DNA of 64,000 nt from Acorus gramineus (Eukaryota; Streptophyta; Magnoliopsida; Acorales; Acoraceae): assembly GCA_030737835.1 (NCBI GenBank), contig CM060857.1:15387496-15451495 (forward strand), read 5' to 3'. Made by a program: the position numbers and the translations under genes. Below, piece after piece: positions 15,618 through 54,892 of the stretch. Within the stretch, counting starts at the first letter, position 1. Every line of letters begins with the position of its first letter. The notes beneath the pieces were generated by a model. The model made no database searches. It saw nothing but the letters and a program-made list of their open reading frames with translations, and was not told the DNA's origin.

Positions 15618-17730
15618 GAACTCGTGCCTGTTGTCGATTTGCAAGATCATCGATCTTTCAGAATGGTACAACCATACCTCGATTTCTTTCCTCACTTGCT
15701 GTTCATGTTTATCCTTTGTTGTGAACTGTTCTCTCATCATGTCCATTGCTAAAGCCTAGACTTGTAAATCAAGTTTTTGGTTTTCTTGTGGTTCTATAAT
15801 CTGCATTATATTCCCCCAAATAAAAAAAAATTGGAAAAAGAAAAAAGAAAAAACAAGGCTTGGAAAGAGAGATTATGGGCAGAAGCTTAGGATTAAGGTT
15901 TTGTTCAACTTAAATTTCCACTAGGATTTCTATAATTTTTTTCTATCACATTTTGACAAACTGTTGTCGTGTCATGGATTTAACCATAGGTTTTAGGAAT
16001 TGTTTTGGAAGCTGAAGAACTTCCTGAACTGCATATTGCTGTGGGCCATGTAGCGCCAAATTAATTTTTTTAAGTTGTCTCATTTAAAATCTCAGCGAGG
16101 CATTCATTGAGGCTCAATAGAGTATACTTGTTAAATTTTCCTTGAAGAACGCCATATTGTGAGACAAATTATTCACACAATGCACAAATTATTCAATGGA
16201 ACAAGTTTTTTTTTTATGTTGTAGATATGTTTTTTTTTTTTTGGGACGATCATTTCAAGTCAAATATGTGCTTCGGCACTGCAGGCCGTATCTATTGTAA
16301 CCATTCGACTTGTTTCAACTGCAGAAGATGTTTATTTGTCCATTTAAGCATATATTATATATTATGCTAACTATATGAACTGAATCTGTATTAAATTCAG
16401 GGAATTGGTGCTGTATGTGACAGGCAATGCTTGCGGTGCCTTTTCGTAAAGACAAGGCCGTCTTGTACCGGTCTGTGTTTTGTCTAACTCTTTTTGTTTT
16501 CTTTTTTAAAATGAACTCGCTTCATCTTGTTTTCAACTTTTTAAAATTTTATGTTGTGTGATGAAAAAAAAATGTAAAAGCTTGTTTCCCTGTCAATATA
16601 ATTAATCTCTAATTGGGATATTCCCATCAACTGAAATCACCTATACATGATTAGAAACAGTTGCATGTCAAACTCATTTATAACTTTTTACTGAAGTACT
16701 GATTGCAGGATTGACAATATAACAAAAACATGCCATGTCTGGTATGTCACAATCACAATAATAAAAGTTAAAAGAGTGTTGATAAACTCTGTGCAATTTG
16801 TTTTGCAGTCCCATTGGCAGCTCGCGGTTCCTCAACTGTTTATACAATGTGTTATTGCAGTGTATACATTAGCATCATGGCTCATGATTATTTTTTTAAA
16901 GAAAAATACATAAGTATATCTAAGTGTGTTTTATTTTAAAAAAAATGGTGAGGCTGTTCCCGCATGGTTGGACAGTCATTTTCATTACAACTGACATCCA
17001 AACAAAAACATATTGCGTCAATACTGTTTTAGTATATACTTCAAATGATATATGTTACAAATAACATTCAAAAGGTTCTCATATGTGCACATCCGCCCCA
17101 TATTACAGGCTTAGATGCAGCTAAAACAATATATGGATATTAACAGTGTCTGAGGTTCTATACTATTATATATGACAATAATTTTTTTTTTCATTTTCAA
17201 AATAAATTTTTTTATTATGGTATTTCAATATATATTTTATTTTGTATGATTAAAAAAAAACAGAAAAAAGGTGTGAATGGCTATTTGGGGCTATACAAGG
17301 GACAGGATGCATCTATTTTCTTTAATAATAAATAAAATATATAATTTTATGAATTGATGTGTATATATATATATATATTTATTAATTTGGGAATAGAATG
17401 CATAAAGAGAGTGAAACATACGCTGTGTTGGATAATTTTAATTTAATTCTTGATTTGTTTTATTTTTCAATTAGATATCAACTCGTTTTTACTTTTACTT
17501 TTTTGTTCTTTGATGTTTATGATGACTATAAGTTTGATTACCGTCCTTAATTCTTATAAATTGGTTCTCGGACGCATGTTGTCCTCGTATGTGTATTCTT
17601 CAGACTTTTTTTTTTTTTTATTTCAGCTAACTGACACGCGTCAATCATTCGAACGTGGGTTATTTCAAACTCTTTCGATGCATGTGCACGTGCAGGTTAT
17701 GATAAGCACAATCATTCTCAGGGAAACATT
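15618..17730. other. 3' flank of the AMBRA1-like gene, AT-rich
   Basis: Holds the 3' UTR and spacer, with several A- and T-runs and a short (TA) tract near 17362-17378. No gene seen. Confidence 0.4.
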
Positions 17731-18655
17731 GGTATAGCTCCTAGAAATTTATAAAAATCGAGAATGGTCCCTGTAAAATAAATAAATTTCTTCGGATACT
17801 TATATTATTTAACAATATTTATTTTAGAGTCCATAGTAACCTAAACCAATTAGATATGTGATTAACCCTAAACTTACATGATAGATTTATGTAATACATT
17901 TTTAAAATTTACTTTATTTCTTTGAACAAATTGATATAACTCCTTCAAAATTTATGAAAATCAGAAAAAAAATGACTATAAAATCAGTAAATACTCTCAA
18001 GTTTTTATTTTGTTAGGCAAAATTTATTTCAATTCCTATTATAACCAGGACTAACTGCAGCCGCTAGTTTTTAATGTACATTGTTGAAAACAAACTATTT
18101 TGGGTACTCTACAAATGAACAATAATAAAAACAAACTGTTTTACGCATTATGTTGAGAACAAATGTTTTATCTGTCAAATTATACTAACCATGAGTGTTG
18201 TTCAACTTTTCAAATATGTTCGTAATTATTTTGTATGTTTTTATCCTTACAAATTTATTAAAATCCATTATTATCCTAAACAATTATTTCTTCTAATCTT
18301 ATATTAAGATTTAAATTGATAATATATTTTATAAATTTTATATAAATTAAGATTTTCTAACAAATTAATTAAAATTAATTAAAAAATACACAATTTTCTG
18401 ATAGTAAGAGGCTTCTCAGTGTTTAAAGGGCATTTCAGTCATGAAAATGATTGATTTAGATTTTATTAATTTTTCAGAGACTTATTCGAATTCTATTTTC
18501 AGAGATTCCGTTAACTAAATAGCATATTCCTAGAATATGCTCTTTCATTGACAGAATGTTGACTCAAGGAAGATAAAAGATAAGGAACTGAGAGGATTTA
18601 CTGATTTTACAGGGATCTTTTTCGATTTTCATAAGTTTCCAAGGAGTTATACATT
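17731..18655. mobile_element. Long-TIR non-autonomous DNA element, copy 1
   Basis: The left end (TATAGCTCCTAGAAATTTAT, then a GTCCCTGTAAAAT-like motif) is mirrored by the right end (ACTGATTTTACAGGGATC, then TTTCCAAGGAGTTAT). The terminal inverted repeats are roughly 60-80 bp and imperfect. The interior is AT-rich and non-coding. Related copies lie at about 36987-37850 and 54585-54890. The superfamily is not certain because no clean target duplication was found; the long TIRs suggest Mutator-like. Confidence 0.6.
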
Positions 18656-22604: not shown

Positions 22605-24438
22605 GGGAAATTTTCAAAACTAATCCCCTAAAAAAAACATTTTCACTTTTGGCTCCAGAATCAATTTATTTACAAAACTGGCCCTGGAGTCTTTTTTAAC
22701 CCGGTGACGACCAATTCAAAAAATGTCATGGTGGAGACGTGATTGTAAATTACATCTCCGTCGATCCCGACGCACAGCCTACAACATGCACAGACAATGC
22801 GCAGGGGCATGTCTCCAAAGGTTTGCATTTGTTTTTTGGATTTTTAGTTTTAAGTCCCTGTAAACATGCTTATTTAGGGATCGGTCCCTCACTTCTTCAT
22901 ATTTCTTTTTTAGTCCTCATATTCAACCGCCTATTTGGTTTTTAGTCCCTCCGTTAAACGTTTGTCCATACACCGTTAATTTGTGAAATGTGATTTTATT
23001 TTTAAGTCCTTATAAACTATGTTATTTAGTAATCAGTCCCTATAAATTATGTTATTTAGTGATTAGTCCATGTAAAATATGAAGAAGGAAGGGACTAATC
23101 AATAAATAACATAGTCTATACGAACTTAAAAATAAATCACATTTCACAAATTAACGGTGTATGGACAGACGTTTGACGGGGAGACTAAAAACCAAATAAA
23201 CGGTTGAATATGAGAGATAAAAAAGAAATATGAAGAAGTGAGGGACCGGTTGCTAAATAGACATATTTATAGAGACTTAAAAATAAAAATACTTTTTTTT
23301 TTTGCATGGGTTTTGGTTTACGTGCATGGGTTTTGTTTTGTTTTTTTTTTTTAAATGATGTTTGCATGGGTTTTGTTTGCATGAATGGTTTTTTTTATTA
23401 TTATTATTCTAAATTTGGATAATTAAAAACAAGTTTTTATTTGTTATCTATTTATATAGAGTCGTCATGTTTAAAAATAATTGTTAAATTGATTCTATTT
23501 CTGTAAAATGTAAAAGTATATTTTCACATGATCAGTTTCAAACGCGAGTTTTTATATTTTAGCTTTTTGTTTCAAATTTTATTTTTTATATAGTAAGATT
23601 AAAAAAAAATTCATTATGTAGAAAAACAAAGTTAAAAGAAAAGATTAATTTTTTTATAAATACATATATGCAATTTATATCTCATTTTCAGCCCCACAAT
23701 TCCAGTCTATATATGTTTTAAATTTTTTTAAAATAGCATACCTCATCTATTTAAGTACGTATTTTTATAAAAAATGAATCATATACTCCAATAATTGCAT
23801 ATATGTATTTATAAAAATATTAATCTTTTTTTTTAACATTTTTCTTCTACATGAGAAATTTTTTTATTATTAATCTTACTATATAAAAATTAAAATTTGA
23901 AACAAAAACTAAAATATAAAAACTCACGTTTAAAACTGTTTATGTAAAAATATGCTTTTACATAAATAAAATCAATTTAACAATTATTTTCAAATATAAC
24001 AAATAAAAACTTGTTTTTAATTATCCAAATTTGAAATAAAAAAGAAAAAAAAATGTTATTCATGAAAACAAAATCCATGCAAATATCAAGGAAAAAAAAA
24101 AATAATGCAAACCAAAACCTATGCACGTAACCAAAACCCATGCCAATAAAGAAAAAAAAAAATTCCAAACCTTTGGAGACGTGTTTAAGCATGAGTCTCC
24201 CAAGCAGACGTGATGCTTAATCATGTCTCCGAGGAGAGACGTTCCTGCGTGTGTTTTTTATGCACACGCATGCGAGGTCGATGGAGATGTCGTGGTATTT
24301 TTTTGATCGATCAACGCATCATATGGATGCGCTGATCAGGTCAAAACAGACTTTAGGGTTAGTTTTACAAACAAACTGACTCTAAGGTCAAAAGTGAAAA
24401 TTTTTTTTTTTTTCTGGGGTTATTTTTAAAAATTTACC
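22605..24438. mobile_element. Large fold-back element with very long inverted arms
   Basis: The left arm (about 22605-22840 plus 23290-23590) is the inverted complement of the right arm (about 23880-24438). Markers found in both orientations include TTTTCACTTTTG near the tips, GTCTCCAAAGGTTTG, GCATGGGTTTTGGTT and AAAACAAGTTTTTA...AATTATCC deeper in. The arms are about 540 bp each with about 290 bp between them. No transposase is present. The left arm is split by the element at 22841-23290. Long arms suggest a Mutator-like or fold-back origin; target duplications are not clear. A transcript across it would fold into a long hairpin. Confidence 0.75.
22841..23290. mobile_element. Palindromic MITE nested in the fold-back element
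   Basis: A near-perfect palindrome of about 450 bp. The left half runs TTTTAAGTCCCTGTAAACAT, then CCCTCACTTCTTCATATTTC, then CCATACACCGTTAATTTGTG. The right half repeats each block as its reverse complement in opposite order. It interrupts the left arm of the surrounding element, while the matching right arm is continuous, so it inserted later. It has no coding content. Confidence 0.75.
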
Positions 24439-31375: not shown

Positions 31376-33060
31376 GTCAATAATCGCAAACTACTTCTTA
31401 TAGATCTGCTTGAACTTCATTATCTCAAGAACTCGATGCCATGTGATTGGAACAATTTTTTTTATTGAAAACTGTAGGTCGAATACATTCCTTGGAAGTC
31501 ATACTGCATTGCAAAAAAATACTCAATCATATATAAAAAATTAAAAGTTATATACCCAGTAGGATCATATACACACATATAAAAGAGTTATGCTTTTCAA
31601 ATTAACATCAATCATATATAAGAATAAAATGAGTTCTTGTTAGTTTATATTGCCAGCCTGATTTGAATATAAACAATAGAAAACTATATCAAACTCATAA
31701 TTAAAAAATAAATCAAAATCATTGATCAACTAGTATTTCAAAAGAAAAAAATATAACACAAACAAGGTCAACAACAAGAAAAAAGAAAAAAAGATGGAGG
31801 GAATATATTTACCTTACACTTCGATATCGGACAAAGGACAGTGACTGGTGGGTGGAACAATATTATATTGGAGCGGCAAAGAAAAGAGAGGAAAGGAGGG
31901 TGGAGCAAGGGACGATGACCGGTGGGCGTTGTGGCTGGCGATCGAAATGGCCCATAGGTGGAGATGGGTCGAGAAGAAAGAGACAGTTTTTTTAAATGGG
32001 TTGGGGTGGTTTTACACAATAGAATCTAAGAGGGGGTGGTTCTATAGGTTTCAAAAATATTGGTTGGGTGTCTTTTGGGGTGATTTTATATTAAATGGGG
32101 GTTTAAATAACCGTCGTGGCTACGCAACCGAGGGTTCTTCTTAGAGAGAAGAGCGCATCAATCATGCGGTCTCTGTACCATCAAAAACAATGCCGTCGCA
32201 TTACAGTGGGCCGTTTATTGTCAACATTACTATTTGTTTGAATTAATATATAGCTTTTATTTTTTTATTTTTTTTCTAATATACACTTATCTATTAAAAT
32301 GATCTATTAAAATGGATACAATTATAATCATATAGATTACCATTTTTCAAAAAAAATATAAAATTTAAATTTTCATAAACCGCACTATCACATTATACAC
32401 TCCAATAGCAAAGTATATAAATATTTAAGAGATCGTTTTTAGATTGTAAACAAAATTATAAACTTGCATAACAAAAATAATTCAGTCTTCTCTCACCCAC
32501 ATTTTTTAATTTTCCTAATTTCTCTCAATTATGGAATGAAATTAAATCTTGTTAGCATAGTGAGTGATCATGATGATCAGAATTTATAAGGATAGTCAAG
32601 CATCTGAATTTAAAGCTTTGGTATTCTCCACGTGTTTTTTTTTTTTTTTTTGGGAAAAGTATATAATATACTTGTTAAATGAGTTAGTTACTTTCATTAT
32701 ATAAATTTATGTATGCTCAAATAAATTTACTGTATATATTTATTTGAATTTTTTCTAACCCTGTGTACAATAGTTAGACCTAATGTATACAAAATCAGGG
32801 AAACTAAAAGTGATGACATTACCGTTAATGACAAAAAACAGAGATGGAAGGGTACTAAATCAGAGATTTACAAATTCAAACAATGCTCAGCAACAAATAC
32901 ACAACCAGAATAAAAGCAATGACAAAAGAAGATGTCAAAAAAAAAAAAAAATGTTCACTAAAACAGAAACAGCCCCTCTCATTCAACAAAACCATCCATT
33001 TCATCTGCTGAGATTCAGCTTCTTATCATTTGTTTTTCCCCTTCATCGGTGAATTCTTAA
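31376..33060. other. Spacer between SMAP1 and the first SKU5-similar gene
   Basis: AT-rich. The short frames at 31768-32144 on both strands overlap each other and match no family. T-runs lie at 32635-32650. The part from about 32930 rightward is the 3' flank of the SKU5-similar gene and still shows partial similarity to the flank of its twin near 43530-43565. Confidence 0.4.
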
Positions 33061-33130
33061 ACACAGACATATAAATACATAAAGAATGTGAATTGATCAT
33101 GATGAAGATACATTATAAAGGATTCTCTTA

Positions 33131-34910
33131 TCAAGTGTAAGGATCAGGCTTGGGGAGGTCAGCAACAAAGCCACAGAGGGGCTGGTTGTCCGGGATGTTG
33201 TACTCATCCCTCAGCGACCTCGCTGGAGACAACACACTGATGTATAGCTGCTGTCCCAGGTACTGCCTCTCCCAATTCTCCGACCGAATGTTCCACATCC
33301 CCGCGTTGTCGAAGGTGAGCAATATTGCGCTCCACGACTTCGGGTAGACCTGTATGGTGTGCCTGCTCACCGCGTCAAGCATGTTGTAGTTCTTCCTGCT
33401 CTCCGGCGTCCATTTCCCTGGTCCCATCCTGCGTGCATATATATTCATCATGCCCAATGTTAGTTAATTAAATAATTAGTTTATAAGCGCGCGCGCGCAC
33501 ACACACACATGTATATGTATAGTACTAGTTGATTGCTAGTTACTACACTGACCCGACGGGGAAGAAGGAGTAGCCGTCCAAGTGGTAGGACTGGATGCTC
33601 TTCTCGTGGTTCTCGAAGACCACCTCTATGAAATCACGGAAGGTGGCGTTGAGGACCACTGGACCTACTGTGATGTGTGCCCTCAAGACATTGCGTGCCG
33701 GCTCGTCCCCAATGGTGTCATACTTGAAGACCCTGTCGGCGACTCCGAAGTACTCTGCGAGCTTCAACGGGGTGTCAGGGTTGGAGTAGGACGCCCCGTT
33801 GAGTGCGTAGCGGAGCTTGCCATCGACGATCCTCCCGGAATTGGCGAGCTTGATCGTGCGTGTGATGTTGATCTGACCGTAGTGGTATGACCCCTGCGGA
33901 TTGGGCCTGGCCGCACTGGCCGTGAGGTTCCACCTGAACGAGCGGAACTGGTTGAACGACCACCCCCACCCGGCCGGCGCCTTGGGGAGGACGGACGAAG
34001 CCGGTTTGTCAGAGCCCGCGTATCGGATGATTCCGGTTGCGGAGAGGCTGTACCTGGTGAACCGGGTGGAGGCGATCATGACGTAGTCGCGCGGCTCCTG
34101 GTCGGCGGTGACGAGGACGGAGTAGCACTGGCCGACGTGGACGTCGAGGGAATCGTATATGTTCTGCACGGTGTGGGAGCCGTCCATCTCAACGAGCTTC
34201 AACGAGTGGCCCTGGATGCGGAAGTTGAGGGAGTTCTTCATGCCCACATTGCATATGCGGTAGTGGTAGGTCTTGCCGGCCTCCATCGTGAAAACAGGGG
34301 ATTTCGATTTCTCACCCAGTCCCGTCTTCCCATTGAGGAGGACGCCGTTGGGGCGGCCGAGGGATCGGCCGCTGTCGAGGACCCTCTTGAGGGACTTGTG
34401 ATCCTTGGCGTACCAGTCCCCGATGAGGACGGTGTAGTCGTCGGCCGGGTCGGGGTAGGGGACCGGGATGAGGAGACGGCTGTTGACGCGGAGCCCGCCG
34501 AAGCCACCGACGGCCTTGTGCATGGCGGTGGAGGGGAAGTAGAAGTAGCTGCCGATCTGGTCCTTGACCTGGAAGTGGTAGGTCCAGTTGGTGCCAGGGA
34601 GGATGGGGCAGTTGGTGCCGGGCATGCCGTCCTGCCAGGAGTTCTTGCGGTGCTGGATGCCGTTCCAGGAGAAGAGGAGGGGCTCGTCCAGGTTGTTGAA
34701 GACGTTGATGACTATGTTGTTGTTGGTGGTGGAGTTGATGTTGGGGCCCGGGAACTGGCCGTTGATTAGGATGCCCTGTTGGGGGATGCCCAGAGGGGAG
34801 ATCGTGCCGTACGTCACGTTCCACGTGAAGAAGAGGTACGGGTCCTCCGCCATCGCCAACCCCGCCGACAGGGCGAGGAGAGCGACCGCTACCGCCACTG
34901 CCTGCGACAT
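33131..34910 (-). CDS. SKU5-similar multicopper-oxidase-like protein, copy A
   Basis: Exons 34910-33553 and 33428-33131, split by a 124 bp GT-AG intron, give 551 aa. Residues 1-21 are a signal peptide (MSQAVAVAVALLALSAGLAMA). Three cupredoxin domains follow, with typical SKS blocks: GILINGQFPGP, SWNGIQHRKNSWQDG, GSYFYFPS, YHLDGYSFFPVG and NAGMWNIRSENWERQYLGQQ. The HWHG-type copper ligands of true oxidases are missing, so it is probably not a copper oxidase. Several N-glycosylation sites are visible (NVT, NST, NWT, NIT). The C-terminus ends PDPYT without a hydrophobic tail, so no GPI anchor is expected, unlike SKU5 itself. It resembles the pollen NTP303/Bp10 group; that expression is inference. 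The longer upstream reading frame to 35147 is leader sequence. The intron contains a (GC)n(AC)n microsatellite. Confidence 0.92.
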
Positions 34911-35053
34911 CTTCTTGCACCGATACGTGGTGAAGTCACAGAAAAGTTTGTGATCGACCTTTTGTGTTTGAATGAGACAAACGTCGCCTTCACCTTTTGA
35001 TGGAAGGTGAGGGAGAGACGGAAGGATTGTTTTATTAGCGGGAGGCCATTCTG

Positions 35054-35085
35054 TTTTTATATATAATGGAAGCTTATATATATAA
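35054..35085 (-). promoter_or_regulatory. Likely TATA region of SKU5-similar copy A
   Basis: On the minus strand two TATATATA-type boxes precede the ATG by about 145-175 bp. The whole block from the ATG back to about 35098 looks the same as in copy B (41489-41673), so the core promoter and leader are shared. The choice of box is inference. Confidence 0.5.
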
Positions 35086-35620
35086 AGACAGAGAGAGAGA
35101 TGGGTGGGGGTATGAAACTTTGATCCCTCTCTTTCTGGAGACCTCAAGAGATTCCCAATTTATAATGTAAGAGGTGGGGATGAGAGCAACCCAATCGATC
35201 TGTTGTACTGTTTGCAGTGGTTTCTATGGCTCAACCGTTGGTTTATGGTTTCTATTTTTCGGATTTCAAAAGCTACAGACGCGGGAAGATGGTCAACTAT
35301 GGGTCGCGCTGTTTTGGAACTGTTGTTTGCCTATTAAAGAACATGGGTGGGTCTGTTTGACTGAGTCAAAGTTGTCAACCGTCTTTTATGGGAATAACCG
35401 TCAAAGAGGCTTCTCTTTCTGGAAATAGGTATTCATGAACTGGATTTCTTCCTCCACCTTCTCTGTCTCCATGAAGGGCCTCCATTCATGATGCAGGGTT
35501 TGCATGCCTATTGTTGGAAGTGATCGTGGGTTTCTTTCACTTCATCGGATGTTCAGTCTTTTTGCAGGGTTTAACTATTGCCTTTACACGATGCAGAGTG
35601 TTATCTAGTCATGAGGGTCT

Positions 35621-36029
35621 TTAGAGCGGTGATCTTGCAGTCCATCGTTCCGGCGAGAGCGTGGACAATATGGAAAACACGAAATGCAATTGTCTTTAGA
35701 GGAGAGTGAGCGTACCAAGAAAATATGTGGGATACGTTCCAGGGATATATGAGGGATTGGGGACGCTACTTTGCGAAGACGGAGACCGTTGGCTTCCGCA
35801 ACGGACGCTTGTGCATCGTGGGGTGAGCGTCGACGCGCTGCCCTCACAACCTCAGTTTAGAAATCTCTTCTAACAAGGAACCAGAGGCCGGTCCTTTGGC
35901 AACACTAGCTTTTTTTTTGTTATTGTTTTATGTTTTTACTCTCTGTTTTCCTCTCATTCAGAGTTTGTAATTTGAATTCATTTATGAAATCGGGTAGCAA
36001 GCGTCTACCTTTTCTTAAAAAAAAAAAAA
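35621..36029 (+). mobile_element. 5'-truncated L1 LINE with poly-A and target duplication
   Basis: The plus strand encodes the tail of an L1 ORF2 (AWTIWKTRNAIVFRGE, later WDTFQGYMRDWGRYF), broken by a stop. It is followed by an untranslated tail and about 13 A residues ending at 36029. A 17-base duplication flanks it, TCTAGTCATGAGGGTCT at 35604-35620 and TCCAGTCACGAGGGTCT at 36030-36046, with two differences. This is a textbook target-primed insertion, truncated at its 5' end to about 410 bp. The two duplication differences suggest moderate age. Confidence 0.88.
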
Positions 36030-36339
36030 TCCAGTCACGAGGGTCTATTCTTCTCAGTCCCTAACACGTGTTTTACAGTTTTGTGATAATTCTGATCTTA
36101 TATTAGGGATCAAGTTCGGTCCGTAGGACAATTTGATTATCCATCGCGTGTTGGAGCATTAAATCTTATTAAGCACATTAGAATTGACACAACAAATTAT
36201 GTTATAATTGAGATATTATGTAATTAAATTTTAAATCAAAATTTAGCATTTAATTAAATTCTAATTTTTTCCTTTTTAGAACTTTTCGATTTCCTCTCCC
36301 TTCTCCTCCTCCCAAACGGGTTCAGATCCTCTGCTTGCC

Positions 36340-36592
36340 TCAAAATGTATTAGAATCTGCTTAACTTTTTATACAAGCATGTCACTTGTCTTTTTCAAAA
36401 TTTGACAGTCATAAATAAAAAAAATGTGGGTCCCATGATTTTTTTATTTTTTTCGTTGACACAGCCGGATCCCACAATTTTTTTAGGTTTTTTAGTTGAC
36501 CCACAGTTTTTTATTTTTGACAGTCAAATTTCAAAAAGGACACGTGGCTTGCTTGTACAAAAAGTCAAGCAGATCCTAATACATTTTGATTA
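36340..36592. mobile_element. Fold-back MITE inside the FAR1-bearing element
   Basis: The left arm from TGTATTAGAATCTGCTTAAC to GTGGGTCCC and the right arm from GACCCACAG to GCAGATCCTAATACATTTTG are inverted repeats of about 90 bp with scattered changes, leaving about 60 bp in the middle. It has no coding content and abuts the downstream end of the FAR1-like fragment. Confidence 0.75.
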
Positions 36593-36840
36593 ACACCTGC
36601 AGAAGGTGCAAAAGGTCTATTATATCCATTTGTTTTGTAAGTAATATCAAAACATAATGCATCACCAAAAAAATCATAATCTAGCCTTGATCTTGCATCA
36701 GCCCAAAAAATAACTGTGATCTTTTTCTCTTCATCAAGTTGCACAACATAGTAGAACAATAGGTTTTCTTCATTCCAACTCTGAAGATACTGTAATATAG
36801 CTCTTGCATCTCCTAACTTCATGTCATGCATTACTCTAAT
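36591..36840 (-). pseudogene. FAR1/FRS (MULE transposase-derived) fragment
   Basis: About 80 codons on the minus strand carry the entry to the MULE/FRS transposase domain: DARAILQYLQ, NEENLLFYYVVQLDEE, then FWADARSRLDYDFFGDALCF and TYKTNGYNRPFAP. This order is highly conserved in plant FAR1-RELATED SEQUENCE proteins, which are several hundred residues long. The DNA-binding, catalytic and SWIM parts are absent. The piece is open but isolated and lies between transposon ends, so it is a relic or captured fragment, not a working transcription factor. Confidence 0.8.
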
Positions 36841-36986
36841 AGAAGAATAAGAGTATGGGAGGAGAACGAGAAGAGGGAGGAAATTGAGAAGTTTCTAAAA
36901 AGTAAAATATTAGAATCTAATTAAATGCTAAATTTAATTCAATTTCACAATATCTCAACTACAATAGATTTTAATTTATAAATTTT

Positions 36987-37850
36987 AGGGGAAAATCGAT
37001 ATCTCCCTGGAAACTTATGAAAATCAGAAAAAGTTCATGTAAAATTGATAAATTCCCTCACGTCCCTATCTTATTAGATAATATTTATTTTAGTCCCTAT
37101 TACTAACCAGATGTATGGTTAACCCTAACCATGCATGGTAAATTACTGTTATGTCATTTTAAAATTTATTTTCTTTGTTGGAAAAAATCGATATAACTCC
37201 TTGAAAAATTATGAAAATTAAAAAAAGTCCATGTGAAATTTAAAAATCTTCTTAACTCCCTGAAATCTTCTTAAAATCACAAAAAATTCATATGATTATC
37301 TAAAAATATACTGATTTATTTAAATTTTATTAAACAAATTATAGTTTTATAATCAATGTATTATGCTTTTTATTATAGAATTTTGAGTTAAGAATGTATT
37401 ATAGAATTTTGATTGGGTTTTTAAATTGTTTTCTCTATTGATTTTGTAATAGAGTTGATGAAGATGTAATTTTTTTTGTTCAATCTCTGTGATGAGATTA
37501 AGAAGGTGAAAATGTTGAAAAATGACTCAATTTTATATATCAAATGAGGTTTGATGGATATTTTTTTTTACAGATGAGGAAGACATTTCAGGAGATGGGG
37601 ATGCTGAAAAATAACGAGGGTATTTCTGTCTTACAAAAGAAATAAATCTGATTTAATAAAGTTTGTAAGGACTGAATCCAATTTTAGAAAGTTTCTGAAA
37701 ATTTATTTCAATATACTCTTGACCGGAGGACTAAATTCGTTAACCATATACACTTTATGGAGACCTAGGATGATTTTCTGACTTTAGAGGGACTTTTTGT
37801 GAGTTCAAGAAGATTTCATAGAGTTAAGAAATTTTTTTCCTAAATTTTAA
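36987..37850. mobile_element. Long-TIR non-autonomous DNA element, copy 2
   Basis: Starts GGGGAAAATCGATATCTCCC with CTTATGAAAATCAG behind it, as in copy 1, and ends in a diverged inverted version near 37800-37850. It lies inside the right TIR of the FAR1-bearing element. Partial internal repeats of the end motif (around 37185 and 37250) suggest earlier rearrangement. No coding frame. Confidence 0.55.
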
Positions 37851-37910
37851 TATGATTAGATCTAATGGATCAACACACTTTAGATAATCAAATTGGACCT
37901 AATCCAGTCC

Positions 37911-40651
37911 CTTTGTTATTGGAAACGAATAGCAATGGATCACATGATAATATCCCCATCTCGTGGGGTTATTATGGACAACGGTGCCGTGTTTGACACA
38001 AAATTTGCTCATTTGAATTCAGAGGTGGAATTGATGTCGTTAAAGACACTGAATATGATGTCACGTTCTAGGAGTAGTCATGTATGCCATGTGACATCGG
38101 ATGCACAGATTTTATGATTTCTTCTGATTCAGAAAGAATTTTAATGTTTTCTTTGTTAGAAAATAATATTTTTCTTCGATAAATTTTTAGTGCAGATTTT
38201 GGGCTTTCGAGCGATTATATAGACCGTTCTAGTCACTGGAAGTTTGTGTTTCCTTTGTCAGTGTGATTTTGTAATTGATTTGTGTTGTAGCTTGAATGGT
38301 TCTTTAGGATAATTACATTAATATTATTGTGCCAACTTTTTGGTGATTTAGAATCCTGAATGGATTATGGGTCAATTACAATGTTGGTTCAAGAACAATT
38401 GATTCTGGAGATGAACATTTGTTTCATGATCTTTTAAATGTTAAATCCGAGTCTAGGTTCGGACTCACGCTCGAGTTAGATTCTGTGCGTCGCAGGTTGG
38501 GTTTAGACAGGCCTTTAACTTTGCCCAACCTGTTTAAATTGCATCCATAAACATTGGAGGATATTTTTAAGAGATATTTTTTTTAGAAATTCAATTTTTT
38601 TTAAAATAATACGGTGGAGTAATGTTATGAAATAAAAACAATAATTTTATTTAAAAGAAAAAATATAATATTGTATCTTGATAAAATTTTATTTTATATA
38701 ACAATGTGTATTTCAATGAAAAAATATATAATTTTAAAAAATAAAAAAGTACAGGCTTTGAATGAGCTGAACCCAGGATTGAACTCTATAGATTTCCTAT
38801 CGAGTCGGTGATGCATATGAGACTGGAATTGGGGTTGGAATAGAACTTTGTGTGGACCAGCACTCTTTCTAGAGATTCAAGGGTCCGTGGATGTGGACCA
38901 TTTGCCGTTGACTTTAGTCATCAAAAACAGAATCTTAACTTTAACCTGCCGTATGGCGTGGAACATAAGGCAAGAATAATGAAGAATTGATGAGAATAAC
39001 TAAAAAAAATTGTTTGTTTTGGTAGAATAAACTCCGATAGTTATGTCTGGATAAAGCTAGGATAAGGCCTGATAACTATTATAAGGAAATGGTGGAATTG
39101 CTTATTAAGGCTTATCTATATCAATGAATAAAAATATCCTTCTCTATCATTTTAAAAAATTTATCTCACCTAACAGATTCACACATATTCCAAAAACTAT
39201 CACATCTATCAAATCAATCATATATCTCTCACACTATTCACAGGGGGTATAATTGTCATTTAAAAAATCATAAACTTTTATTCATCCCTTATCAACCATT
39301 TATCATCACTTTATCCAAGGTGAACCAAAAAAAAAAAAAAAAAAATCAAAAGTCTTTAATTCTTTAAGTGTTCTCTGCTTTTTGGAATTTAGTTAACTCC
39401 ATCTGAAAAAATTGACAAGCACTGACCCAACAGAAACAATGTTTTATTTTTGAAAACGATACGACTCCATATTTACGTAAGACTGTGAAGAATGATGTGT
39501 GAGTCACATATTCAAGATATTGTTTTAGAATTTTTTTCTGTATCATGTACAATTCAATAAACATAAGAAGTAGGATTTAGGAATGGCTTCTGATTTTGGG
39601 AATCCCTATTTATTTCTACATTTTGAATTTGATATGTCCGCATCATAGCAGCTTCCTGAATTGGCGAACTGAAACATCGAATTGCGTGTGCCCGAACTAC
39701 AACAGCTTTTCTTTTTTTTTTTATCAAAAGTGAGACTGAAGCAACATCTTCTTATTTAACATTTCAAAAGATTTCTCATTCTTTTTTAATTAACATTTAA
39801 AATGAACAAAAACTAATATCATATCTACAAATTATCAATGTTCAAATATAAAATGAACAAAAACATCAAATGATCAAAAGCCAAATATGATTCAGATATT
39901 AAACCTTTAATAAAAATATTCAAATCCATAGATACATCCCGATAAATAAAAACTGTCCACAGCCCAACAATAGTAGATTAAAAATGAAAAAAAAAAAAAA
40001 AGACACAATTCATGAATTTGAACTATTTAATCCAATTAGAACAAAAAAAAAACATGAATCATGAAATCAGGTTGAACCCAATAATCCAAAATATAAAAGA
40101 ACTCACAAATTCCTTTTCCACCTCGCACTAGTTCTTTTAAATCATGCATGGCATTTCACCAAACAAAACCTACCGAGAGATTTTTTCAATTCGATTACTC
40201 TGTGTTAGGGAACGTTAGGGAATAGTAGAGAATCTTTTGGAGATAGTTCTACCATTCAATCTATTTCACTGGTATAAGAAAGATCCACATGTTAAATCAT
40301 ATTTTTACTTTTTTATAATTCTCTATCCACGTCTTATTCACAACTTATCTATTGTTGTCATACAATAAATATTTTATTATTATATTTTCTAATGAAAAAT
40401 AACTAAAAACACAATAACCAAATAGAAAATGGTTTATTCTTTATCTATTTAGAATAGTTATTATTTCTGTGATAGCTTATATCACTATCCAAATAAGATG
40501 CACGTTGTTAGACAATCTCTTTTAAAGTTTTGCACGTAGTTTCATTTGCCTTTAAGGTCGTCAAACAAAGTATATAACTCATGTACCTCAACATTTTTCA
40601 TAAGTTGATAGTACAATGCATTGGAAATATGTATTTTATTTTTTATAAAAA

Positions 40652-40689
<38 letters not shown>

Positions 40690-41404
40690 CAGACTATTTC
40701 TAAAAAATCAACCTATGCGACACTGCAGCCGGGGGGCTGTAAATGAAGTTGTGCCTAACATTTTCCATCCCTTAAATAAATATCTCAAGCACCATGTTCT
40801 CTTGTTCGAATTTAAAAAACTGAAGCATGCATTCATAATTAAGGAGAGTTAAGAGTTTCATGTAACCTGGCTAGTTAAAATACAAGGAAGGTTTCATGAT
40901 ATAAGTAAACAAACCCAAAACGATAAAAAAAAAAAAAAGGAACCGGTAACGTTCTTGTATTCAAAACTTGAAAAGGATACTCTTGTTCTTATTTTTATAT
41001 ATGCAATTATTAAAATTGTGATACTTCAGAATTCCCATTTTATGGATCGCCATTCAATAAGGTGGCGGAGGTGGCCATATGAAAGAATGTTTTGGTTTTT
41101 GTAGAATATTTTCGTTTCAATTGGATAAAAAGTTCGCCCTGGAAGAGAGGAATCCATATGAAATAAGAGTAAAATTGAGACCAGTTGTAGCAGCTCACGT
41201 TATATAATATTATATAATATATATATATACACATAACAGATGTAGCATCCATAAAAAGACAAATTAACAACATATTTCAAACACAGTCAAACAACCACCA
41301 CACCCAAAATATAGAAAACAGAGAGGATTAACCGTCGTAACCGAAACATGCGTGTACAAAACGTGCGACGGAGAGGCGCTTCAGGCAAACCAGAGATGCA
41401 TTAC
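37911..41404. other. Spacer between the two SKU5-similar genes, right part
   Basis: AT-rich with no supported gene. It contains GGTTGGGT-rich remnants at 38450-38540, a possible MITE at about 39010-39330 (GGATAAAG-containing ends in opposite orientation), a CT microsatellite at 40658-40686 and a TA tract at about 41204-41229. The homology of promoter B with promoter A starts, weakly, near 41405. Confidence 0.4.
40658..40686. repeat. (CT)n microsatellite
   Basis: Uninterrupted CT dinucleotides for about 29 bp, in spacer DNA. Confidence 0.9.
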
Positions 41405-41500
41405 ATCCATTATAAAATAAAATAAAAACTCCATTAACGGATGCCTCCCTAAAAGAGAGAGATTCATCACTGTTTCACATCTCTCCCTCTCTCTGTCTTT

Positions 41501-41530
41501 ATATATATAAGCTTCCATTATATATAAAAA
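41501..41530 (+). promoter_or_regulatory. Likely TATA region of SKU5-similar copy B
   Basis: Two TATA-type boxes (ATATATATAA at 41501-41510 and TTATATATAAAAA at 41518-41530) lie about 145-170 bp before the ATG. They are shared with copy A. Either could set transcription start around 41530-41560. Confidence 0.5.
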
Positions 41531-41673
41531 CAGAATGGCCTCCCGCTAATAAAACAATCCTTCCGTCTCTCCCTCACCTTCCATCAAAAGGTGAAGGCGA
41601 CGTTTGTCTCATTCAAACACAAAAGGTCGATCACAAACTTTTCTGTGACTTCACCACGTATCGGTGCAAGAAG

Positions 41674-43455
41674 ATGTCGCAGGCAGTGGCGGTAGCGGTC
41701 GCTCTCCTCGCCCTGTCGGCGGGGTTGGCGATGGCGGAGGACCCGTACCTCTTCTTCACGTGGAACGTGACGTACGGCACGATCTCCCCTCTGGGCATCC
41801 CCCAACAGGGCATCCTAATCAACGGCCAGTTCCCGGGCCCCAACATCAACTCCACCACCAACAACAACATAGTCATCAACGTCTTCAACAACCTGGACGA
41901 GCCCCTCCTCTTCTCCTGGAACGGCATCCAGCACCGCAAGAACTCCTGGCAGGACGGCATGCCCGGCACCAACTGCCCCATCCTCCCTGGCACCAACTGG
42001 ACCTACCACTTCCAGGTCAAGGACCAGATCGGCAGCTACTTCTACTTCCCCTCCACCGCCATGCACAAGGCCGTCGGTGGCTTCGGCGGGCTCCGCGTCA
42101 ACAGCCGTCTCCTCATCCCGGTCCCCTACCCCGACCCGGCCGACGACTACACCGTCCTCATCGGGGACTGGTACGCCAAGGATCACAAGTCCCTCAAGAG
42201 GGTCCTCGACAGCGGCCGATCCCTCGGCCGCCCCAACGGCGTCCTCCTCAATGGGAAGACGGGACTGGGTGAGAAATCGAAATCCCCTGTTTTCACGATG
42301 GAAGCCGGCAAGACCTACCACTACCGCATATGCAATGTGGGCATGAAGAACTCCCTCAACTTCCGCATCCAGGGCCACTCGTTGAAGCTCGTTGAGATGG
42401 ACGGCTCCCACACCGTGCAGAACATATACGATTCCCTCGACGTCCACGTCGGCCAGTGCTACTCCGTCCTCGTCACCGCCGACCAGGAGCCGCGCGACTA
42501 CGTCATGATCGCCTCCACCCGGTTCACCAGGTACAGCCTCTCCGCAACCGGAATCATCCGATACGCGGGCTCTGACAAACCGGCTTCGTCCGTCCTCCCC
42601 AAGGCGCCGGCCGGGTGGGGGTGGTCGTTCAACCAGTTCCGCTCGTTCAGGTGGAACCTCACGGCCAGTGCGGCCAGGCCCAATCCGCAGGGGTCATACC
42701 ATTACGGTCAGATCAGCATCACACGCACGATCAAGCTCGCCAATTCCGGGAGGATCGTCGATGGCAAGCTCCGCTACGCACTCAACGGGGCGTCCTACTC
42801 CAACCCTGACACCCCGTTGAAGCTCGCAGAGTACTTCGGAGTCGCCGACAGGGTCTTCAAGTATGACACCATTGGGGACGAGCCGGCACGCAATGTCTTG
42901 AGGGCACCCATCACAGTAGGTCCAGTGGTCCTCAACGCCACCTTCCGTGATTTCATAGAGGTGGTCTTCGAGAACCACGAGAAGAGCATCCAGTCCTACC
43001 ACTTGGACGGCTACTCCTTCTTCCCCGTCGGGTCAGTATAGTAACTAGCAATCAACTAGTACTATACATATACATGTGTGTGTGTGTGCGCGCGCGCGCT
43101 TATAAACTAATTAATTAATTAACTAACATTGGGCATGATGAATATATATGCACGCAGGATGGGACCACGAAAATGGACGCCGGAGAGCAGGAAGAACTAC
43201 AACATGCTTGACGCGGTGAGCAGGCACACCATACAGGTCTACCCGAAGTCGTGGAGCGCAATATTGCTCACCTTCGACAACGCAGGGATGTGGAACATTC
43301 GGTCGGAGAATTGGGAGAGGCAGTACCTGGGACAGCAGCTATACATCAGTGTGTTGTCCCCAGCGAGGTCGCTGAGGGATGAGTACAACATCCCGGACAA
43401 CCAGCCCCTCTGTGGCATTGTTGCTGACCTCCCCAAACCTGATCCTTACACTTGA
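41674..43455 (+). CDS. SKU5-similar multicopper-oxidase-like protein, copy B
   Basis: Exons 41674-43031 and 43158-43455 (126 bp intron) give 551 aa, the same length and architecture as copy A: signal peptide, three cupredoxin domains without the usual copper ligands, no GPI tail. By eye I find about eight base differences from copy A in 1,656, four of them changing the protein: N to S in GQI(N/S)ITRT, H to P in RA(H/P)ITVGP, G to R in MGP(G/R)KWTPE and F to I in LCG(F/I)VADL. The first removes an N-glycosylation site. The gene points away from copy A. It converges on the ALE2-like gene, with about 670 bp between their stop codons. Confidence 0.92.
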
Positions 43456-44122
43456 TAAGAGAAGCCTTTATAATGTATCTTCATCATGATCAATTCACAT
43501 TTTCTTTATGCATTTATGTGTGTGTTTGAGAGGGGGCTGTTTTCTCTTTTGTGAACATTTTCTTTTACTTGCTTTTGACACTAATGTTTAATCAGATCAA
43601 GTATTTGTTGTTGAGGAAAATACTTATAGTAACAGAAAAACAAGTCTAATGGTGTTCAAAGGGAAAAGCTGTTTGTGCCCATGTAATAATAAAACGCATT
43701 CTTTGTGTGCAATCCTAAGAAGAATCTTGTTTTTCTAATCCACATATTTATTTCATTAGATGGAAGTATGTGTTTTTAATTTTTTCTACATAAATTAACA
43801 GCCTTCCATTCATCAGAATTTATAATTTATATAATTAATTATAGAATTCATTGTTACAGATAAGACTGCATATAAAACTACATGTAACACTATTCCTTTT
43901 GTTTTTAAAGCAGTGAACTGCATGTTAGCATCCAGAGGATGTATCCTCCACCTATAAGATATAGAAATGAATTGGGATTCTCAAAAATTTGAAGCAAATG
44001 GCAACAATTGCCATAAATACAACATGCACAACAGAGATCTTTCCTGAAAACTATACATTTTGGAGTAAGAAATGTAAGGGAAAAAAATGCATGGGGTGAA
44101 ACTAAAAACAAATCCACCAATA

Positions 44123-47100
44123 TCAAACCCAATACCCATCCATGTCGAATCTCCTCGACAGGAGGCCGTGTTCGCTCATGCTTCCTCGTAGTCTATAAAA
44201 CAGTGATTGTGTCTTCTTAGTCCTTATAGGTCCGGATCTACTATGCTTGACTATGTTTGATGTGGAGTGCGACCTATCAATCTCTTGCATTGGACCAGAA
44301 CTGTATTCCATCGTTATAAGAGAAGAGGCATATCCCTGCGTCAACCGAGGTGTGCTCCCACGCCACCAGCTGCTGTCGGAGCAATGCTCCCCTCGATAAT
44401 CGTGATCAGGGGCAGAAGAATCCTCTCTTTGGCTGTTACAGTCCTCACAGGCCTTGTCCCCATCTTTGTATATCAGCTTCAGGGCCTGCACAACCTCACC
44501 CATGAAGGGCCTCTGCGTCACCTCGGGGTGCACGCACATCGAGGCAATGGATGCAACCCTCACAAGGTCATCGAAATCGTAGTTCCCTCCCAGTGAAGGA
44601 TCCACCAGCAGCTTGATTCCTTCTTGGCTGGTCAGTAAGGGGCGCGCCCACATCACGAGGTTTTCCTGTCCCTCAGGTTGGGACATGTCCACTGGCTGTC
44701 TTCCAGATAGGAGCTCCAACAGCACCACTCCATAACTGTAGACGTCGCTCTTGATGAGTAGATGGCCTGTCATAGCATATTCAGGGGCAACATACCTGCA
44801 AAATCATAATGTTGGCTTAATAGTGTTAGAAAATGATATGCCTGAAATCTGTGGTGAGTTAGCAAGGCTGCTTCTTGGATAACTGATTCTATGAACTTTT
44901 GTCTCCTGACACAAGCAAGAGTTCATGGAAACTGTACGGTTTCCATGGATAAATTTAGACACTTATTTTCCAAAATTAAATGTCCAGATATGTTAGGAAT
45001 ATCATGTCAATGATAATAAAATAACATGGTGCTTAGCGATAAGCATAATGACTTATACCGGACTATTATAGTAGTATTATGACTTACGACCATATTGTTA
45101 CTCCCATCTTGCATTTACCAAATAAAAGTTGCGGTGGAAAAGGAAAGGAGCCTACCCAAAAGTGCCCATGACTTGAGTGGATATATGCAGACCTTCTTCG
45201 GATGCTTCCCTGGCCAATCCAAAATCTGAAACTTTCGGAGTGAAATCATCTTCCAACAAAATATTACTAGCCTTAAAATCACGGTGTATGACATGAGGAT
45301 TTGAATCCTCGTGGAGATATGCCAATGCTCTTGCTGCCCCAAGAGCAATCTTCATCCTTGTATCCCAGTCAAGGGGACCCCTCCTCTGGTCAGAACCTGA
45401 AATTTCGAACCAAATTAACAAGAGATACAACATGGGAAGACATATAATGGTATAATGGTGTATATACCATGCAAGTGAGACTCCACGCTTCCATTACGCA
45501 CAAGTTCATACACCAAGCATCGCACTCGTTCTTCAATGCATATGCCAATTAGCTTGACAAGGTTGCGGTGATGCAACCGGCTGAGCGTTTCAACTTCTGC
45601 AATGAATTCTCGATCTCTATTCTGGTCCTCCCTCATGAGCAATTTTTTAACTGCAATTTCAATTCCATCTTCCATGATCCCGTGATAAACTTCTCCAAAG
45701 CCACCTCTGCCCAAAAATTTCTTAGAACTAAACTTGTCTGTAGCTTTCTCAAGCTCAGACAGTGGGAATGTCTTAATAGAGAGCATGCATGGAGCCATGG
45801 TGGAAACAAAAGATGGTGACATTGAACTCAGAAAACTACTTGACAGGAAAGACTCGATGCCTGCAAAATCATCAACGAGAATCACATTAGTTACTAGGTT
45901 GATGAGGATCGGAAAACATGGACAGGTTATGCTTCAAGCTCAATACTATGTCAAAACTGGAAAAAACAATAATCCAATAAAAGAATCTCGTGAATTAGCT
46001 CAAAAAATGAACCGAGTAACAGTAAGACACACAATCTTAATATATGTGAAACTAGTCCAAAACATTAAAAAAATTAAAATACAACAAATTATTTTCTTTT
46101 CTTTTTTTGGAAATAGAACAATATTAATTATAATGAGATATAATGCATGTCCTGTAAGCGTGCAAGTACAAACACTAGAAGCACCAGAATGACAATTATA
46201 TTTGAATTTGAAACTTATCATTCAAAAGGATATCCCTACCAGATCTTTTGGTAACTGATGACTTAAATGCAGGACGAACCATGGTTGATGGTCCTCTGCC
46301 TTTCATCCATTTTATAAGGACGCAAGATATAGCAAGGCATATTATGAAGAATGCAGATAAAGCTAGAACTACAATAGCTATAGTTCTCCTGTGAAGCTTC
46401 ACATGCACATTTGCATTCTTAGGTAACTGATGACTTCCACTAGGGCTACCCCCAGATATAAATGGAGGTGTAGCTGAAAGACCTGTTGATTGGCATTTGA
46501 AATCAGTTGATCAACTAGTAATACATATGGTAAATGATGGACACGATAACATGGGATGTTATTACCTGGATAACGAATAGAGATCACGTCATATTCACCA
46601 AAAAGTGTGGCATTCAGGGGTACCTTCCTCCACAAGAACCTCTCATAAATCAGCAGAGCAGTTGTATTGTCAAATTTCTCTCCTAGAGGCACCAAGAAAA
46701 TATTCACCATTGTTTTATCTTGATCCTGAGTATCAGCACTGGCTCCCATTATCCTTACTTGACTTTGTTTCAGATATGTGCCTTCGGCGACCTCAACTTC
46801 TAGCTCTGGAATAAGAGGGAAGATTACATACGGAGTGACCCCAAGATCAAGTTCGACTTGCATTGGTAGTATACAACCACAAGGTGAACCAATTGGCGTA
46901 GGAGTCAGAGAATCAGGGCAATTGACTTCCTCACAGTCTGCAAAGGTTACCCAAATCATTAGAATTGAATAATAGGCCGTGTTTTTCTATTGGATCATGT
47001 TCCAAGTGATCTTTTAATACTTGTTATTGGCTTTCCAGCCATATAAGTGAACATATATTTCCACCCACACCTCTCCAGTTCTCTGCCGATGGCTCACTCC

Positions 47101-54584: not shown

Positions 54585-54892
54585 TTTTTGAAAAATCAAT
54601 ATATTTTTTTAAAAACTTATGAAAATAAAAAAATGTTCTTATAAAATAGAGTCTCTATCTTATTTGAAAATATTTATTTTAATAACTACTGTACATTAAA
54701 CTAATCAGATTTATGGTTGACTCTAACCATACATGATAAATAACTATAATACCCTTTTAAAATTTATTAGATAAATTATTGTAATACACTAACCAGATTT
54801 GTAGTTGACTTTAAGAAGATTTACTGATTTTACATGGACCTTTTTCAATTTTCATAAGTTTCCAGGGAGTTATATCGATTCCCCCCCCCCTT
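54585..54892. mobile_element. Long-TIR non-autonomous DNA element, copy 3
   Basis: Left end AATCAATATATTTTTTTAAA with ACTTATGAAAATAAAAAAAT; right end ACTGATTTTACATGGACC, then TTTCAATTTTCATAAG and GGAGTTATATCGATTCCCCC. The same end motifs occur in copies 1 and 2. It is short and probably internally deleted. A run of 10 C lies at the right edge. Confidence 0.6.

Follow-up and report, generated by a model that had tools for sequence, protein, structure and literature searches.

An inverted pair of SKU5-similar-type genes in Acorus gramineus, probably kept alike by gene conversion

RESULTS

Two intact genes in mirror orientation

We analyzed a 64,000-nucleotide stretch of Acorus gramineus DNA (assembly GCA_030737835.1, contig CM060857.1, positions 15,387,496 to 15,451,495; here called the window), which carries two genes, L and R, that we take from features of their sequence to be members of the SKU5-similar (SKS) family. 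Both genes are intact, lie in mirror orientation, and are divergently transcribed, with their ATGs 6.8 kb apart. Each encodes 551 amino acids and has a single short GT-AG intron, of 124 bp in L and 126 bp in R. The translations begin with a hydrophobic N terminus. In the L protein, Pfam finds three multicopper-oxidase (cupredoxin) domains (PF07732, E = 1.5e-39; PF00394, E = 6.6e-44; PF07731, E = 4.2e-31), and the top match among 59 solved sequences is ascorbate oxidase 1AOZ. Alignment to 1AOZ places SWNG opposite HWHG, FPS opposite HGH, HLDGY opposite HLHGH, and RSE opposite HCH; if these 1AOZ motifs are, as we assume, copper ligands, most of the ligands have been lost in L. The SKS exons have a GC content of 60%, versus 35% for the window, a contrast that would fit a monocot. 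Beyond the pair, tblastn detected no further SKS copies in the window (E 0.01). Relatives of the protein were absent from viral contigs, and eight pattern matches in prokaryote genome contigs yielded no confirmed relative.

A near-identical tract spans the core promoter, the gene, and the first bases after the stop codon

The two genes share a near-identical tract of ~2.0 kb (Table 1). Self-BLAST aligned positions 33055 to 35100 with positions 43531 to 41484, in inverted orientation, at 98.9% identity over 2,050 columns, and a base-by-base alignment of the tract revealed 16 substitutions and 6 indel columns among 2,021 columns. Four base pairs of the indels form a ragged 5' end; the other two are a (TG)n difference in the intron. 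The coding sequences differ at 10 of 1,656 bases, which correspond to five synonymous codons and four amino-acid changes (N348S, H412P, G457R with two substitutions, and F540I). A first-pass annotation of this DNA had already called them nearly identical, with a slightly low count of about eight differences. It had also described a near-identical intron, ~185 bp of unchanged leader and core promoter, and edges at about 35098/41489 and 33075/43495. The alignment bears out all three: apart from two substitutions and the 2-bp indel, the introns (124/126 bp) are the same (~98% identity), the 184 bp above the ATG that make up leader and core promoter contain no difference, and the aligned edges lie nearby, at 35094/41490 and 33085/43501.

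High identity thus covers the intron, silent sites, and untranslated sequence too. With 0 of 184 leader positions, 2 of 124 intron positions, and 5 changes per ~378 synonymous sites differing, selection on the protein does not account for the resemblance of L and R, and we therefore rejected purifying selection on the protein alone.

Homology continues past the tract edges at a much lower level

At the edges of the tract, identity drops abruptly to ~75 to 83% of ungapped columns, and the aligned stretches are short and rich in indels. Downstream of the genes, the flanks remain alignable in register (70.7% over 99 columns; BLAST E = 5.6e-7), and shuffled sequences did as well in 0 of 500 trials at 150 bp, 0 of 500 at 300 bp, and 1 of 500 at 600 bp. 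After a long T-run was shortened, the alignment comprised 64 matches and 13 mismatches, a result equalled by none of 3,000 random window segments. These comparisons argue strongly for residual 3' homology, as the first-pass annotation had proposed for the downstream sequence. Farther out (beyond 220/150 bp), similarity was not clearly above chance, with 176 of 300 shuffles as good.

On the 5' side, ~73 to 82 bp can be aligned, with 50 matches, 17 mismatches, and gaps. An anchored extension was equalled by none of 400 window segments and none of 500 shuffles; beyond 60 bp, similarity was not clearly above chance (18 of 300 shuffles as good). Residual 5' homology is thus modestly supported: upstream homology is recognizable, as had been suggested, but only over a short stretch and with weaker backing than on the 3' side.

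No element boundary was seen at the tract edges, with no transposon library searched. A candidate retrotransposon remnant upstream of L, which was based on one peptide frame, was dropped: none of four pieces rose above the curated Pfam cut-off, and the one row returned was a chance-level zinc finger (E 1.8). The spacer contains a member of a dispersed repeat family (36987 to 37226), other members of which lie at 17720 to 17969 and 54613 to 54886, and an 83-nt inverted repeat at 36340 to 36589.

Divergence is uneven inside the tract

Substitutions are concentrated in the 3' part of the tract: the first 1,216 columns hold 1, and the other 805 hold 15. The best change-point was matched by none of 5,000 permutations, and the longest substitution-free run extends over 817 columns (p = 0.004). 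Three of the 15 later substitutions sit within 5 bp of the 3' edge; when these are set aside, the contrast is 1 in 1,212 bp versus 12 in 798 bp (Fisher p = 1e-4). Silent sites alone give 1 of 424 in the 5' part and 7 of 302 in the 3' part (p = 0.011). The two sub-tracts therefore differ in divergence, at ~0.1% (5') and ~1.5% (3'). This split is a second signal that agrees with gene conversion between the copies, and it points to at least two ages of homogenization besides the age of the flanks.

With an assumed neutral rate between 2.6e-9 and 6.5e-9 per site per year, the 5' part of the tract would date to ~0.06 to 0.16 million years and the 3' part to ~1.2 to 3.0 million years. The alignable 3' flank comes out at ~15 to 37 million years or more; this is a lower bound, since the count took in only the best-aligned columns.

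The GC content at third codon positions (GC3) falls along the gene, from 0.90 in codons 1 to 342 to 0.82 and then to 0.76 in exon 2. In four stop-to-stop frames of neighboring genes, GC3 is 0.31 to 0.58, rough values in that the frames may hold introns. GC-rich genes with 5'-3' GC gradients are common in monocots. The GC3 fall is compatible with biased conversion, yet it is common in monocot genes.

Table 1. Features of the L and R loci (window coordinates)
Feature	Position	Strand	Remarks
Near-identical tract, L arm	33085..35094	-	~10 bp above TATA box (35084) to 46 bp past stop codon
Near-identical tract, R arm	41490..43501	+	TATA box at 41500
5' sub-tract, L	33883..35094	-	1 substitution in 1,212 bp versus R 41490-42701; read as the latest homogenized part
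3' sub-tract, L	33085..33882	-	12 substitutions in 798 bp and 2-bp indel versus R 42702-43501
L exon 1	33553..34910	-	ATG at 34910
L intron	33429..33552	-	124 bp, GT...AG
L exon 2 including stop codon	33131..33428	-	
R exon 1	41674..43031	+	ATG at 41674
R intron	43032..43157	+	126 bp, GT...AG
R exon 2 including stop codon	43158..43455	+	
Residual old 5' flank homology, L	35095..35167	-	partner R 41408-41489; ~75% identity in ungapped columns, gaps frequent
Residual old 5' flank homology, R	41408..41489	+	
Residual old 3' flank homology, L	32886..33084	-	~75 bp without counterpart in R; partner R 43502-43615
Residual old 3' flank homology, R	43502..43615	+	
AT-rich spacer between genes	35168..41407	.	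repeats common to other parts of the window; ends not clearly alike beyond ~80 bp

DISCUSSION

A probable old duplication with repeated gene conversion

For patterns of this kind, gene conversion between inverted copies that lie near each other is the established process, and an old inverted duplication followed by repeated, tract-limited conversion is very probably the best explanation of the L/R pair. Three collinear levels of divergence (~0.1%, ~1.5%, and ~17 to 25% of ungapped columns plus indels) are found between the copies, and a single duplication does not fit them. The adjoining flanks clearly fall short of the ~98% identity of the intron. The proposal of the first-pass annotation that an older duplication was later homogenized by conversion is supported by these levels, which are in register, and by the collinear residual homology of the flanks, clear on the 3' side and modest on the 5' side.

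From these patterns we infer the following course of events. An old inverted duplication would have given rise to two SKS-type genes that are transcribed divergently. Substitutions and indels would then have eroded their flanks, which were free of constraint, whereas the transcription units would have remained alike enough for pairing. Repeated nonreciprocal conversion between the arms, whether they paired on one chromatid, on sister chromatids, or on homologues, could have rehomogenized the DNA between the core promoter and a point shortly after the stop codon, with an older event over the whole 2.0 kb and a later event, or a shorter repair tract, over the 5' 1.2 kb. Conversion would halt at the edges, where similarity is presumably too low for heteroduplex, and would for that reason be self-limiting. 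The match between tract and transcription unit would follow likewise, because constraint would keep only the transcription unit similar enough to pair. As a result, the two proteins would be held almost alike, and the DNA on both sides of the genes would diverge. This may have consequences for expression, and we predict regulatory divergence of L and R. The pair could thus serve as a compact natural test of conversion that splits a homogenized transcription unit from freely diverging regulatory DNA. It also carries a warning, as ages estimated from the coding sequences of such duplicates can come out far too young.

Several observations weigh against this interpretation. The 5' residual homology extends over little sequence, some of it rich in pyrimidines, and its anchor was the best of nine tried (scores, 8.9 to 13.2). 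When the start was moved outward past the pyrimidine-rich sequence, 1 of 300 and 0 of 300 shuffles were as good; as a plain local match, the 5' alignment was equalled by 4 of 3,000 window segments; and without an anchor, 14, 2, and 13 of 500 shuffles did as well at 150, 300, and 600 bp, respectively. On the 3' side, past the insertion in L, the corresponding counts at the same three lengths were 0, 0, and 7 of 500, and the first 30 bp of the flank, anchored alone, were equalled by 1 of 400 window segments. The boundary between the sub-tracts was picked from the data, a choice for which the permutation test allows and the Fisher tests do not. Differences between strong and weak bases number 6 versus 4, too few to indicate a direction of conversion or a GC bias. 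Finally, all the evidence comes from the comparison of L with R in one species.

Alternative origins

We consider it improbable that the pair arose by a single recent inverted duplication of the 2.0-kb gene alone, with the edges as breakpoints and the flanks unrelated. Such an event would produce sharp edges and would fit both the modest support for 5' homology and the lack of anything clearly in common beyond ~80 bp (5') or 200 bp (3'). It is contradicted by the adjoining 3' sequence, which is homologous in register, probably by the 5' sequence as well, and by the uneven divergence within the tract.

Slightly less probable again is a one-time overwriting, in which a recent ectopic copy of the neighboring gene, made by break-induced or template-switch repair, replaced an older SKS paralogue, with no recurrent conversion. 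Sharp edges and old flanks are accounted for equally well by this scenario, which is in effect one conversion event, but it leaves the contrast between 1/1,212 and 12/798 unexplained unless the 3' part remains from an earlier event. An artefact of assembly or polishing, in which one copy was corrected with reads from its twin or one of the arms was duplicated by mis-assembly, is very improbable. Polishing could remove some of the differences along a portion of a tract, but splice sites are intact in both copies, both have changes and flanks of their own, and by our reasoning polishing could not turn sequence of 75% identity into identical sequence that ends abruptly.

Returning to repeated conversion, it is conceivable, though on balance doubtful, that the promoter drives polar conversion of the tract, with meiotic breaks close to the transcription start leading most often to conversion of the 5' 1.2 kb. 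If so, identity and GC3 would both fall in the 5'-to-3' direction, and the border just above the TATA box would free the upstream DNA, so that one protein would be kept under two independently evolving promoters.

Comparison with known systems

The L/R pair cleanly exemplifies a known process, the concerted evolution of inverted paralogues, and is no new kind of system. Excerpts of a Caenorhabditis study describe divergent or convergent paralogous pairs kept as inverted repeats, for which an active maintenance mechanism was inferred (PMC1803023). As with L and R, these are close, oppositely oriented, near-identical genes with a faster-evolving spacer. They differ in that the inverted repeat extends into intergenic DNA, whereas the L/R tract ends at the core promoter; in the length of the spacer, which is 126 bp in the main Caenorhabditis example and ~6.4 kb here; and in their support by species comparison, whereas L and R were compared within one species (PMC1803023). 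Concerted evolution is also described, in the excerpted text of another study, for mammalian gene pairs that include the inverted BMP8A/B (PMC2720389). This pair resembles L/R in its inverted arrangement and in the high identity of exons and introns combined with divergence elsewhere. Unlike L and R, BMP8A/B lie ~235 kb apart and have seven exons, and the evidence for their concerted evolution includes closer resemblance within a species than between species and elevated GC in the concerted introns, neither of which the L/R case draws on (PMC2720389).

Multicopper-oxidase domains whose copper centers are largely lost are described for SKS proteins, as are tandem clusters in soybean, in the excerpts of two papers (PMC10118275, PMC13026732). 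The L protein matches the family in these domains and in the replacement of most copper motifs (PMC10118275); with one intron, the L and R genes differ from soybean SKS members, which are reported to have 2 to 8 (PMC10118275, PMC13026732). Our literature search returned no paper joining "SKU5 similar" with "gene conversion," and the latter term occurs 0 times in the main text of the soybean SKS paper.

Surroundings of the pair

Just beyond R, an ALE2-type receptor-like kinase gene occupies positions 44123 to 46986 on the minus strand (Pfam ALE2_N, E = 7.6e-53, plus kinase-domain pieces). The three pieces of this gene gave only self-matches in the window (tblastn, E 0.01), which indicates no second copy there, and the nucleotide self-comparison, with 54 rows, has none within the gene; lacking a second copy, the kinase gene thus lies outside the duplication as now visible. 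In the window, there were no Rfam matches at the gathering threshold and no tRNA genes (ARAGORN, bacterial settings). Two large imperfect palindromes, at 23293 to 24154 (76%) and 22840 to 23290 (83%), each match their own reverse complement, and together this region (22840 to 24154) looks like a foldback or miniature inverted-repeat transposable element (MITE)-like element. Between 51817 and 54184, related stretches of ~350 to 450 bp recur in direct and inverted orientation and are 73 to 74% alike.

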